The position numbers and the translations under genes are program-made. Positions 17,724 to 21,219 of a DNA stretch of 38,409 nt are shown piece by piece. The first letter of the stretch is position 1. Each line of letters opens with the position of its first letter. This stretch comes from Puniceicoccaceae bacterium K14 (GTDB taxonomy: Bacteria > Verrucomicrobiota > Verrucomicrobiia > Opitutales > Opitutaceae): contig JAKYXN010000050.1 in the NCBI GenBank assembly GCA_022538095.1, forward strand, positions 1-38,409. The letters are read 5' to 3'. A model generated the notes under the pieces. It did no database searches and had not been told where the DNA came from. It saw only the letters and a program-made list of their open reading frames with translations.

Positions 17724-18968
17724 ATGCAGCAATACTGCGTGTCCAATAATCCCTATGAATCACCCTGGTGGAAATCTCTCGGCCCTGGCTTCGTTGTTGC
17801 CGCAACCGGTGTCGGTGCGGGAGATCTAATCGCTGCAGCTGTGGCGGGACAGAAATTCGGCCTGGCAGTACTCTGGGTCGTATTATTGGGAGCCCTTTTC
17901 AAAGCTGTTCTAAACGAAGGCGTCTCTCGCTGGCAGCTCGCTACCGGTACCACACTCATTGAAGGGTGGATACAAAGGCTTCCGCGTTGGGTGTCTTGGT
18001 ATTTTCTAGTCTATCTCTGTTTTTGGAGTTTCCTCGTTGCAGCTGCCCTTGTTTCCGCCTGCGGCGTTGCGGCGAATTCTCTGGTGCCTGGATTAAGTGT
18101 GCACACTTGGGCGGTTTTACATTCTCTGCTGGGGGCAATTTTAGTATGGACGGGGCGATATAGCGTTTTCGAATCCTTAATGAAAGTCCTCATCGCTTCG
18201 ATGTTTCTGATCGTGATCGTATGCGCTTTTTGGATGGGGACGCCGTTGTCAGAATTCTTTGCGGGCGTTCTCATTCCAACTATTCCAACAGGGTCCAGCA
18301 AATTGCTTCTTGGGTTAATGGGTGGCGTTGGAGGCAGTGCAACTTTGCTGTGCTACGGATACTGGATACGCGAGAAGGGCTGGAGTGGCCGTGAATTGCA
18401 GCGACGTACTTGGTTTGACCTCGGTTCCGCTTATTGCCTAACCGCCTTATTCGCGATGGCCCTTATCGTCATCGCAGCTGGAGCTCAACCCGGGGACGCA
18501 TCAGGCAAAGCGCTCATCTTGGCACTCTCCGAACGCTTGGGCGATCTTCTGGGTCCTGTTGGCAAAACCGTTTTCTTAATCGGATTTTGGTGTGCCGTTT
18601 TCTCTTCACTCCTCGGCGTGTGGCAAGGCGTGCCCTACTTGTTCTCCGATTATATTTCTCAAATAGGGAGAAAACCAGCCTCCACAGCTCTGAACCGCAC
18701 CCGGAGCTACCGTGGCTTTCTGCTCTATCTCGCGATTCCACCACTTGCCTTACTTTTCTTCCAAAAGCCTCTAGCAATCGTCATTCTCTACGCCGTCGCC
18801 GGGGCTTTCTTCATGCCTTTCCTCGCCTCGATGCTACTCATAATGAACAACCAACGAGACTGGGTGGGTACTATGAAAAACGGCCTTCTAATAAATATCG
18901 CACTCGCCAGCTCGCTAGTCCTTTTCGGCCTTTTGTTCGGCTTCGAATTAGCCAATCGCTTCTTCTGA
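17724..18968 (+). CDS. NRAMP-superfamily transporter with non-canonical binding motifs
   Basis: Inner-membrane protein of about 11 segments with the NRAMP (LeuT-fold) pattern: 'SLGPGFVVAATGVGAGDLIAAAVAGQKFG' in segment 1 (residues 18-46, in parts GPGFVVA and GVGAGDL) and 'EGVSRWQLATGTTLIEGW' after segment 2. In classical Mn2+/Fe2+ carriers segment 1 carries DPGN and segment 6 carries MPH, which together bind the metal. Here these places read GAGDL (31-35) and 'GGVGGSATLLCYGYWIREKG' (200-219), so both motifs are absent. This fits an NRAMP-related group often annotated simply as divalent metal transporter, whose substrate is not established. The ATG at 17724 lacks a clear Shine-Dalgarno sequence. 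It is alone, divergent from the beta-helix gene. Confidence 0.85.
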   Translation: MQQYCVSNNPYESPWWKSLGPGFVVAATGVGAGDLIAAAVAGQKFGLAVLWVVLLGALFKAVLNEGVSRWQLATGTTLIEGWIQRLPRWVSWYFLVYLCFWSFLVAAALVSACGVAANSLVPGLSVHTWAVLHSLLGAILVWTGRYSVFESLMKVLIASMFLIVIVCAFWMGTPLSEFFAGVLIPTIPTGSSKLLLGLMGGVGGSATLLCYGYWIREKGWSGRELQRRTWFDLGSAYCLTALFAMALIVIAAGAQPGDASGKALILALSERLGDLLGPVGKTVFLIGFWCAVFSSLLGVWQGVPYLFSDYISQIGRKPASTALNRTRSYRGFLLYLAIPPLALLFFQKPLAIVILYAVAGAFFMPFLASMLLIMNNQRDWVGTMKNGLLINIALASSLVLFGLLFGFELANRFF

Positions 18969-18992
18969 GTTGAATAACGTCAACGCTATACT

Positions 18993-19169
18993 TTGCCACG
19001 GCGGTCCGGCAATGACGAAGAGTTGGAGAATCTGCAGTCTTTCCTTGAAACTACAGGTCGATATCTTGTCAGGGTCTCCTTGCTGGAGACGCAGGTGTCG
19101 CAAGGCGACAGCAGGTTTAACAAGCCTGTTTGGCACACGCCAACCTGTGTCCTGAAGGGGCCCTGACAA
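18993..19169. other. Hairpin-dense intergenic region, candidate structured RNA or repeat element
   Basis: The 320-bp gap between the transporter and the kinase holds at least four perfect inverted repeats. TTGCC/GGCAA is at 18993-19012. A 9-bp closing pair, TTGTCAGGG (19066-19074) with CCCTGACAA (19161-19169), encloses GTCTCC-TTGCT-GGAGAC (19074-19090), TGTCGC-AAG-GCGACA (19096-19110) and TTGGC-ACAC-GCCAA (19130-19143). The first two inner hairpins are each followed by GCAGG. A multibranched fold on either strand is possible. There is no T-run after it on the plus strand, so it is not a simple terminator. I cannot match it to a known RNA family. Confidence 0.5.
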
Positions 19170-19227
19170 AAAACTGCTATAGTGAATACTCAAACCGCAT
19201 TCGGGTTTTCCTAGAGACCGACTAAAA

Positions 19228-19252
19228 ATGACTCAAATCATGACTACTGGCA
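19228..19252 (+). promoter_or_regulatory. Conserved box upstream of the two-component operon
   Basis: It contains ATGAC-TCAAA then TCATGACTACTGGCA (19238-19252). The same arrangement, with one base more in the middle and one C/T change in the 15-bp part, is at 21440-21465. The ATGAC direct repeat (12-bp period) could bind the NarL-type regulator encoded next to it. It lies 36 bp before the kinase start. Confidence 0.5.
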
Positions 19253-19288
19253 CATGTATTTTTACTCTACATGCGCTAAGGTAGGAAG

Positions 19289-20566
19289 ATGCCAACGCCT
19301 CCTTACGCTCAGCAAAGCGGTTTGCAACACATTCGTGACCTATCAACCGCAACTCAAGAAGCCTCCAACAAATGGGGCTTAGGATTTCTAATAGTCGTGC
19401 TCCTCGGAGTGATTTTCTTTCCATGGGTGTTCAGAAGCGTCGAATCCGTAGCAGTCTCCCATGCACTCCTCTATTATCTCGGCGTCCTCATCATGACTGT
19501 CAGTTGGTTAGCCATTGGCTACTTGTCGAACGCTAAGGGCCTCTATGCAGATACCAATCAGTCGTGGGGAACCTGGCAGGAAATACTTCTCTACTACTTA
19601 GCACTGGTCCCTTCTGCCTACTTCACACTTTTCTGGGGAACAATTACCTTTGGCACTATTGGCTTTAACCAGGTACTCGTATTTATCGTAGCTTCATTCG
19701 CTGTATTCATCGTTCCAATATGGATGCTCGCCATAACGCTGGTCCTTGAATTATTGTTATTTCACTTCGGGCTACAGATATTTCTGGGATACCGGCTGAT
19801 GTCGCCCGGAATTGTACTCGGAATCGGCTCTGGAATGGCCTTTGGCTGCATGATGTTTCTTTTGCTCAAAAAGGAAGGTCTTAGCCGCTTAACCATGCAA
19901 TCGCTCATTCAACAACTCGATCAAGCCAACCAAAAACTGCGTTCTTTCAGCATCGAAATAGAAAATCTTAGCGTCGCCAAGGAACGCATACGAATTGCCC
20001 GCGAAATGCACGACACACTGGGCCATTCGCTTACCGTAGTGAATGTCCAATTAGAAGCTGCCAACGCACTGATTGAAAAAGGCAACCCAAGCCAAGCCCA
20101 AGCCTTTTTGCAGAAAGCAAAAGAAATCAACCGAACAGGTCTTCAAGAGCTGAGGACGACCGTTTCCTCCCTCCGCTCTTCGCCTCTCGAAGGAAAAACC
20201 TTGGACCAAAGCATCAGCGAGCTTGCCAACCACAGCCGCAAACCCGGGCTCGCAATCACTTTTCAAGTGAGCGGCGACTTTTCGAATGTCGAAGAGGCTA
20301 TCACATCGGCTATCTATCGAATCGCTCAAGAAGCCTTGACCAACATAGACAAACACTCTCGAGCGAGTGAAGCCCTAGTCTCCCTAACGCTCGAAGAAGA
20401 TGAGATCTCACTCACCGTCAAAGACAATGGCGTTGGTTGCGATAGCGTAAGCGACGGCTTCGGAATTCTCGGGATCCAAGAACGTATTCAAATTTTAAAC
20501 GGAGAAACTAAGATAAAAACCTCGACTGGAAAAGGCTTTAAGCTTCAAGTGTTGATTCCGCTATGA
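19289..20566 (+). CDS. Sensor histidine kinase, NarL/DesK type (HisKA_3)
   Basis: Membrane sensor kinase. Residues about 30-210 hold about six membrane helices with little periplasmic loop, resembling DesK/LiaS-type sensors that sense membrane or cell-envelope state. A linker coiled coil (about 205-235) leads to the HisKA_3 dimerisation domain, with phosphoacceptor His241 in AREMHDTLGHSL. The ATPase domain follows: N-box 'RIAQEALTNIDKHS', G1 'VKDNGVGCD' and G2 'GFGILGIQERIQ'. AGGAAG directly precedes the ATG and acts as ribosome binding site, although spacing is very short. Its stop overlaps the response-regulator start by four bases (ATGA), so the two are translationally coupled. The signal is not identifiable. 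Confidence 0.93.
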   Translation: MPTPPYAQQSGLQHIRDLSTATQEASNKWGLGFLIVVLLGVIFFPWVFRSVESVAVSHALLYYLGVLIMTVSWLAIGYLSNAKGLYADTNQSWGTWQEILLYYLALVPSAYFTLFWGTITFGTIGFNQVLVFIVASFAVFIVPIWMLAITLVLELLLFHFGLQIFLGYRLMSPGIVLGIGSGMAFGCMMFLLLKKEGLSRLTMQSLIQQLDQANQKLRSFSIEIENLSVAKERIRIAREMHDTLGHSLTVVNVQLEAANALIEKGNPSQAQAFLQKAKEINRTGLQELRTTVSSLRSSPLEGKTLDQSISELANHSRKPGLAITFQVSGDFSNVEEAITSAIYRIAQEALTNIDKHSRASEALVSLTLEEDEISLTVKDNGVGCDSVSDGFGILGIQERIQILNGETKIKTSTGKGFKLQVLIPL

Positions 20567-21219
20567 GCTCTCCAATTCGATTAATTCTAGTCGACGATCA
20601 AAACCTATTTCGAGAGGGCTTACGAACGATTCTTGAAATTGATGACCGCTTCGAAATGGTTGCGGAGGCGAGCAACGGACAACATGCAGTCACACTCGCC
20701 CAAGAGCACAATCCTGACGTGCTTCTCATGGACCTCAATATGCCTGAAATGAATGGTATCGAGGCAACTCAGGCAATTCTACAAGCCCAACCCAACGCAA
20801 AAGTACTGGTTCTTACCACATTTGATGACGATGAACGCGTGTTCGAAGCCCTTCGCGCCGGCGCCTCTGGATACCTGCTCAAGGATACGCCCTCCGAACA
20901 ATTGGCCAACGCCATCCAAACCATCCATCGCGGAGAATCCTACTTGCAACCTTCCGTTGCCAGCAAGGTACTAGCTGAGTTCAATCGACTTTCAAAAACA
21001 ACTCGCCCAAATAGAAATCAGCTCATCGAACCCCTTTCTCTTCGCGAAGAAGAAGTGCTCCTCTTGCTCTCTCAGGGAAAAAACAACAAGGAAATCGCTT
21101 CCAGTCTTTTCCTCGCCACCGGAACTGTAAAAAACCACGTATCCAACATATTGGGAAAAATGGGTGTTGAGGACCGCACTCAAGCCGCGCTGAAAGCCAA
21201 AGAACTCGGTTACATTTAA
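20563..21219 (+). CDS. NarL/FixJ-family response regulator
   Basis: DNA-binding partner of the preceding kinase. The receiver domain (about 5-120) has the acidic pair Asp11-Asp12, phosphoacceptor Asp57 (LLMDLNMP), Thr in LTTFDD and Lys in GYLLKD. A LuxR-type helix-turn-helix (about 155-215) follows: 'LSLREEEVLLLLSQGKNNKEIA' and 'TVKNHVSNILGKMGVEDRTQA'. Length (218 aa) is normal. The start overlaps the kinase stop (ATGA). Likely targets are the similar boxes upstream of its own operon (19228) and of the lipoprotein gene (21440); that link is inferred. A hairpin downstream (21356) may end the transcript. Confidence 0.95.
   Translation: MSSPIRLILVDDQNLFREGLRTILEIDDRFEMVAEASNGQHAVTLAQEHNPDVLLMDLNMPEMNGIEATQAILQAQPNAKVLVLTTFDDDERVFEALRAGASGYLLKDTPSEQLANAIQTIHRGESYLQPSVASKVLAEFNRLSKTTRPNRNQLIEPLSLREEEVLLLLSQGKNNKEIASSLFLATGTVKNHVSNILGKMGVEDRTQAALKAKELGYI

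Follow-up and report, generated by a model that had tools for sequence, protein, structure and literature searches.

A 38,409-nucleotide contig of Puniceicoccaceae bacterium K14 (here called the window, meaning the whole stretch of DNA that was analyzed) carries about 180 bp of densely complementary sequence between the genes for an Nramp-family transporter and a sensor kinase. The locus raises the question of whether these hairpins constitute a structured RNA, a cis-element of the kinase operon, or one copy of a dispersed repeat, and, in the last case, what kind of system the repeat belongs to.

Anatomy and folding of the window copy

The original prediction described a 9-bp perfect stem enclosing three hairpins, two of them followed by the same GCAGG linker, and this description was exact. 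The stem bounds an inverted dimer of two half-units, the parts and neighbors of which are as follows.

17724-18968, plus strand: upstream neighbor, Nramp-family transporter gene (PF01566, E 9e-36)
18993-19012, plus strand: preceding hairpin, TTGCC/GGCAA, 5 bp with a 10-nt loop, outside the conserved unit
19066-19169, no strand: whole element, inverted dimer of two YAGG double-hairpin half-units
19066-19118, plus strand: left half-unit, TTGTCAGGG-hairpin-CGCAGG-hairpin-GCAGGTTT (R1 67.9 bits, E 4.9e-13; R1 seed)
19066-19074, plus strand: left arm of the closing stem, TTGTCAGGG, with the outer tag GTCAGG (exact sequence match)
19074-19090, plus strand: left hairpin 1, GTCTCC-TTGCT-GGAGAC (covarying helix 1)
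19091-19095, plus strand: linker GCAGG after left hairpin 1 (conserved YAGG)
19096-19110, plus strand: left hairpin 2, TGTCGC-AAG-GCGACA (covarying helix 2)
19111-19118, plus strand: inner tag GCAGGTTT, with GCAGG at 19111-19115 (alignment of copies)
19119-19124, no strand: central spacer of 6 bases, without an ORF
19121-19169, minus strand: right half-unit, inverted, with different hairpin sequences (R1 49.8 bits, E 1.8e-8; R1 seed)
19125-19129, minus strand: right inner linker CCTGT (ACAGG on the minus strand)
19130-19143, minus strand: right hairpin 2, TTGGC-ACAC-GCCAA, paired, with a sequence unlike that of left hairpin 2
19149-19161, minus strand: right hairpin 1, imperfect (by eye)
19161-19169, plus strand: right arm of the closing stem, CCCTGACAA, 9 bp perfect with the left arm
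19289-20566, plus strand: downstream neighbor, HisKA_3 sensor kinase gene (PF07730/PF02518)
20563-21219, plus strand: LuxR-type regulator gene after the kinase gene (PF00072/PF00196)

R1 denotes a covariance model built from 15 aligned half-units, and its matches at this copy covered 19059-19124 (plus strand) and 19116-19176 (minus strand). The further hairpin predicted in front of the stem was present, but its pairing was at chance level and it lay outside the conserved unit, the start of which was placed by eye at about TTGTCAGG in the aligned copies.

The core (19065-19171) folded as RNA with a minimum free energy (MFE) of -60.2 kcal/mol and a z-score of -6.46, and as DNA with a z-score of -4.78, with 0 of 200 shuffled sequences equaling it in either case. 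For a wider stretch of 261 nt, the z-score was -3.03 on the plus strand (1/200 shuffles) and -2.08 on the minus strand (9/200 shuffles). As the original prediction held, this much complementarity is unlikely by chance; apart from the preceding hairpin, nothing speaks for a chance cluster of complementary bases, and this explanation is refuted by the shuffles, together with the copies elsewhere in the genome and the compensatory changes described below. In the MFE fold of the window copy, the left half paired partly with the right half and hairpin 1 was not local; the comparison across copies favors local hairpins over this fold.

The earlier statement that a terminator does not explain the structure also held, as 0 terminator-like sites (a G+C-rich stem followed by a T run) were found within 18900-19400, and an intrinsic terminator was rejected. 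Searches of Rfam returned 0 matches at the gathering score for the element and, at E 5, only two matches far below threshold (E 1.4 and 3.4), neither of them credible; a known Rfam family was likewise rejected. A plasmid origin was rejected because the window's region gave no match to plasmid DNA.

Dispersed copies and compensatory change

When the window's genome (5.72 Mb, 358 contigs) was searched at the DNA level, nine matches were obtained on five contigs, counting the window copy. A loose three-tag pattern gave 13 matches, 11 of which were judged to be the repeat, against 8 for a reversed control pattern. R1 recovered 26 half-units with an E-value cut-off of 1. A cut-off of 0.01 left 22, of which 15 are R1 seeds that match by construction. 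Merging neighboring half-units left approximately 19 elements in this draft assembly of 358 contigs, so that, among the options originally offered, the dispersed repeat is the one borne out. One contig (C33) carried three elements at spacings of 192 and 196 bp, and three copies (C330, the start of C292, and C254) lacked the outer TCAGG tag and represent a variant form.

The half-units share the layout GTCAGG-hairpin-YAGG-hairpin-YAGGTT, and a full element reads TTGTCAGG-hairpin 1-YAGG-hairpin 2-YAGGTTT, a spacer, and then the inverted repeat of this order; by eye, sequence similarity among copies begins at about TT(G/A)TCAGG. In an alignment of 15 half-units (A1), 89.6% of cells paired and 4 of 11 pairs were changed on both sides, a double-change count that was reached by 43 of 500 shuffles and accompanied by a covariation score that was reached by none. 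The larger alignment A2 comprised 50 half-units from six genomes, 49 of them distinct. Here, 91.7% of cells paired, compared with 70.3% after shuffling; double changes occurred in 9 of 11 pairs; and the covariation score was 0.546, compared with 0.171 for shuffles (0/500 reaching it) and at most 0.111 for slid versions of the alignment, the last being the control that weighs most for rows that are related and fitted to R1. The compensatory changes that had been proposed as a check were thus found in number, between dispersed copies, and in this form they fit DNA hairpins as well as RNA.

We then compared the two halves within 11 dimers. Left-right identity was 112/225 in the stems, similar to the 1232/2254 between different elements, and 169/218 in the linkers, and 208 of 231 local pairs formed. 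Because the left and right stems of an element agree no better than those of different elements, the element is not maintained as a single long inverted repeat; the hairpins are selected as hairpins, each remaining able to pair with itself, and the linkers are conserved in sequence. In six loci (L012, L056, L059, L061, L063, and L104), an extra module, CCGCC...TACGGCGTGAC, was observed in or beside hairpin 1 or 2. It occurred in the window's genome and in DG1235, with a similar, non-identical form in the Opitutales metagenome-assembled genome (MAG) OFTM265 (L106), and these modules suggest that hairpins may be exchanged as units.

Such conservation could be expected of a structured RNA acting within transcripts, as 3'-end protection, attenuation, or a processing site in operons, and dispersed because it is useful. 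The strong fold and the covariation agree with this explanation, as does the position of the copies: 21 of 34 copies with both neighbors known lay between same-direction ORFs, and half-units taken as single tended to be antisense to same-direction neighbors (14 vs. 5, n = 27, two of which, L116 and L128, actually have an inverted partner). However, copies occurred in every orientation relative to neighboring genes, the dimer has two-fold inverted symmetry, no credible Rfam match was found even at E 5, and the window copy lacks a terminator-like site. We consider an RNA function improbable. The same orientations and layout weakened, without refuting, the two earlier proposals of a structured non-coding RNA and of a cis-element for the kinase operon. 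Among 37 element stretches, 29 overlapped no ORF of at least 100 aa, and two were wholly inside crude ORF calls. We are highly confident that the family is a dispersed, non-coding hairpin repeat of the mobile type.

The inverted ends (TTGTCAGG...CCTGACAA) would also suit the termini of an unrecognized DDE insertion sequence, with the dimers as remnants resembling miniature inverted-repeat transposable elements (MITEs), and in OFTM265 a dimer lies inside a repeat of ~310-350 bp with TTAA at both ends in the two copies read. Across 15 stretches, however, the summed direct repeats at the ends came to 13, against a mean of 17.4 in mismatched flanks (1707 of 2000 controls were equal or higher), in a test that allowed alternative end motifs and in which some end positions were off by one base. 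End repeats no longer than in mismatched flanks give no sign of target duplication, and a DDE element with target duplication was rejected for these stretches. Moreover, the hairpins of the two ends are not kept complementary to each other, and the loci read contained no transposase gene between half-units. We consider a DDE origin improbable.

R1 matched 3 of 100 sampled genomes of the family under strict filters: the window's own genome (22), G075 (7), and G101 (2). G075 and G101 belong to the same genus, and a third genome of that genus (G018) had no R1 match. A pattern scan of a contig collection returned 12 stretches, 11 of them in Pelagicoccus, DG1235, and OFTM265 [Pelagicoccus sp. SDUM812005 (2), Pelagicoccus MAG IP29b_bin.57 (1), Pelagicoccus mobilis (1), DG1235 (4), and OFTM265 (3)] and one in Actinomadura (1). 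Searched with the model, DG1235 yielded 12 half-units, P. mobilis 8, and OFTM265 10. By eye, no inverted partner was seen beside the 12 DG1235 half-units, and one was present at L116 and L128 of P. mobilis. In OFTM265, the larger repeat around the dimer was dispersed over L102, L106, L117, L120, and L129 with 79-97% identity; TTAA bounded it in L106 and L117, and the repeat resembles an IS1380-type MITE.

All half-units lay on the locally G-rich strand in DG1235 (12/12; L110-L137) and P. mobilis (8/8; L108-L131). The corresponding counts were 15/24 in the window's genome (24 of its 26 half-units, excluding C254 and C332:8363), 5/8 in G075, 3/3 in G101, and 4/10 in OFTM265, for which the excluded position is approximate at loci near contig ends. 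In DG1235 (G113), eight half-units occupied the minus strand at 3.14-3.46 Mb; the other four, at 4.38, 4.64, 4.76, and 0.06 Mb, were on the plus strand where the skew is positive, beyond a skew switch at ~3.8 Mb. A dnaA search landed near neither switch. The bias in DG1235 and P. mobilis fits strand-specific insertion or a survival bias of the G/T-rich tags.

GxxExxY genes between half-units

We examined 30 rows of PDDEXK_3 genes (13 + 17) from a family search in seven genomes. The product, GxxExxY, is a named family (TIGR04256, PF13366), for which the models as returned state no function. All three GxxExxY proteins tested matched TIGR04256 well above the cut-off, and the nuclease motif D, E, L, K (D and ExK) was invariant in all six aligned proteins.

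R1 half-units (E ≤ 1e-3) stood on both sides of 3 of the 30 rows, L089, L092, and L186; since L089 and L092 are the same site in two congeners (G075 and G101), this amounts to only two independent sites. The gene at L089/L092, which we read as standing between gmd and fcl, is accompanied by half-units in the order left, right, ORF, right, some of these halves being assigned by eye. At L186 (OFTM265), the order was right half, left half, ORF, right half, left half, and the left half at 1380-1442 forms an inverted pair with a modified right half at ~1862-1930 around the ORF (1489-1863); the downstream right half was recognized by eye, with a partial R1 match (12.0 bits, E 0.59). Two weaker R1 matches, of 12.8 bits at L188 and 12.2 bits at L183, fell below threshold and were not counted. 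By chance, ~0.055 elements would be expected within 500 bp of a GxxExxY gene over six genomes, and at least two independent bracketed sites would arise with P ~0.0015, an estimate for which the element and gene numbers were entered by hand.

Inverted repeats of one kind or another surround most of the genes tested. Inverted arms scoring at least 28 were found around 18 of 26 tested genes (9/13 + 9/13; four fragment rows, L190, L192, L194, and L195, were excluded), against control medians of 17-20; these controls include related loci, and some of their maxima exceeded the tested score (L185, 34 vs. 38; L191, 40 vs. 47). Most arms were ~10-nt periodic sequences like AACCGCGAATGGACGCTAATAGACACGAATG and not hairpin strings. 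Among plasmid-borne GxxExxY genes from several phyla, surveyed at the best place of each of 8 records (9 places in total), such inverted arms were present in 3 of 8 (Bacteroides, Sphingomonas, and Bernardetia), with control medians of 14-19. At the plasmid loci L198, L200, and L201, in Bacteroidota and Pseudomonadota, the gene lay between co-directional genes (radA, fabD-fabG, and adenine deaminase) with periodic inverted arms. In P. mobilis, half-units at L108, L113, L125, and L131 adjoined 10-nt periodic repeats (TTAACCGCTAAGGACACAGAG...) that flank GxxExxY genes elsewhere.

Six genomes shared one insertion site with a GxxExxY gene inside (L085, L087, L091, L180, L181, and L187), taken to lie between leuB and alaS. 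The arms at this site differed between most of the genomes, yet the two arms of each pair matched, as if they changed in concert.

Seven GxxExxY genes (L088, L089, L092, L182, L183, L186, and L188) had hairpin-string flanks by eye. In the protein tree, these seven fell on one side of a branch (support 57/42; 0 of 500 shuffles were as clustered) when L095, a long branch without repeats, was left out; the hairpin class took 2 changes with L095 and 1 without. The flank classes were labeled by eye after the protein sequences had been seen, and a hairpin count does not cleanly separate them, L085, L091, and L187 scoring as high as L088. With the label set by R1 instead, a single branch (support 75/74; 1 of 500 shuffles) separated the L089, L092, and L186 proteins, two of which come from orthologous sites, from the rest.

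The L186 protein had no close relative among phages or viral contigs, and a phage origin was rejected on this basis; distant relatives were found on 8 plasmids. In the literature searched, mostly without subscription papers, we met no paper combining PDDEXK_3 with an inverted repeat and no element of the nuclease superfamily with terminal repeats, and nothing relevant to Pelagicoccus repeats appeared among the top matches listed. In that literature, GxxExxY figured in an algal virus gene list and in a remark on a CRISPR-linked reverse transcriptase.

Based on these data, we assign a probability of about 0.5 to the reading that the element in the window is one copy of a mobile, non-autonomous repeat without an ORF, related to the termini of GxxExxY nuclease cassettes. 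Such an element would act as DNA; when single-stranded or extruded, it would form the local hairpins with unpaired YAGG tags between them, and a nuclease or transposase recognizing structure and tag would cut or copy it. The enzyme would read a hairpin plus a YAGG tag and cut, after which the cassette or the bare dimer would be reinserted or copied. The likeliest enzyme would be the GxxExxY clade of the L089/L092/L186 type (PD-(D/E)XK-type), for which DNA cutting is the predicted activity and branch supports are modest.

The window's genome has two GxxExxY genes. Because neither is bracketed by the window's repeat family, the copies in this genome may now be relics, or they may be served by the gene at L088 (C54), which belongs to the hairpin-string class. 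At L088, hairpin-string repeats of another type (GGACATCGC...) flank the gene on both sides, and a similar hairpin string follows the third copy in C33.

More tentatively, the GxxExxY proteins could be the enzymes that serve small mobile cassettes of a new class, whose ends change fast and are self- or mutually complementary. The type of repeat would then differ from one GxxExxY clade to the next, as hairpin strings joined by YAGG or other linkers or as ~10-nt periodic arms, and ORF-less copies would be non-autonomous derivatives that a restriction-like nuclease fold, not a transposase, moves in trans. The cassette reading gives GxxExxY a testable role in acting on structured repeats around its gene; if true, the proteins that disperse REP-like repeats would come to include an enzyme with a nuclease fold, and one class of hairpin repeats between Opitutales genes would be explained. 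Should the nuclease link fail, the repeats themselves would still stand as a well-supported family, with covarying double hairpins linked by tags.

Comparison with known repeats and Y1 transposases

MITEs of DDE insertion sequences are short, non-autonomous inverted-repeat units. The window's family differs from them in lacking target duplication and in having ends that are hairpin strings and not mutually complementary. The intervening sequences of 23S rRNA contain a small ORF within an inverted repeat, and their insertion is tolerated. They encode an S23-type protein (PMC4990558). In contrast, the window's family is found between protein genes and is associated with another protein family, and the window copy is without an ORF.

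The closest known anatomy is that of the REPs and terminal inverted repeats (TIRs) around Y1 transposases: as described in PMC3733652, REPs carry GTAG/CGTC tags, Y1 transposases are bracketed by REPs or TIRs, and some TIRs are double palindromic. Like REPs and REPINs, the window's repeat is short, mostly intergenic, and often arranged as inverted pairs, with a tagged hairpin, no ORF, and no target duplication. Unlike them, it has YAGG tags with an outer GTCAGG, two tandem hairpins per half, and hairpin sequences that are free to change, and it numbers ~19 elements (26 half-units), whereas REP copy number is usually >100 per genome (PMC2817692). The similarity extends to the TIRtrons of TIRYTs, which, as described in PMC3733652, have two palindromes per terminal repeat, occur elsewhere as solo and dimeric copies, and bracket a gene for a nucleic-acid enzyme; that enzyme is a Y1 transposase in TIRtrons and GxxExxY, with the PDDEXK_3 nuclease fold, in the window's repeat family. 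The double-hairpin, tag-linked family can be viewed as a variant of the REP/TIR kind, a prior description of which was not met in the literature searched.

This anatomy raises the alternative that the repeat is a REPIN-like element mobilized in trans by a Y1 (HUH) transposase of the RAYT or TIRYT type, with YAGG as a variant foot tag and the GxxExxY genes as passengers. Inverted hairpin dimers with a short tag, without an ORF or excess target duplication, are what such an element would show; RAYT-type genes are present in the window's genome; TIR-flanked RAYT relatives with double palindromic ends have been published (PMC3733652); and the G-rich-strand bias in DG1235 and P. mobilis is as from a strand-specific transposase of single-stranded DNA. 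However, this bias was absent or weak in the window's genome, G075, and OFTM265, the tag is neither GTAG nor CGTC, and the copy number is low. Furthermore, around 11 Y1_Tnp loci in four genomes (three genes in the window's genome and eight in three relatives; up to 1.5 kb, two clipped by contig ends), R1 gave 0 matches up to E 10, so that no RAYT was found next to the repeat at these loci, and a Y1/RAYT partner was rejected for them. By eye, two of the three Y1 genes in the window's genome sit among other repeats, of the GTAGG type. We regard mobilization by a Y1 enzyme as unlikely, although it deserves more weight than the RNA and DDE explanations, and retain the relation to GxxExxY cassette ends as our reading of the window copy.

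A 14-base string that by eye seemed to be shared by a C33 spacer and the flank of a Y1 gene on C314 gave no alignment at E 1e-3 and was dropped. The RAYT-type genes at L014 (C349) and L015 (C36) in the window's genome lie beside other palindromic repeats, TGTAGGTCCTGC...GCAGGACA and CTGTAGGGCCTCAGC..., and the gene at L014 contains an in-frame TGA.
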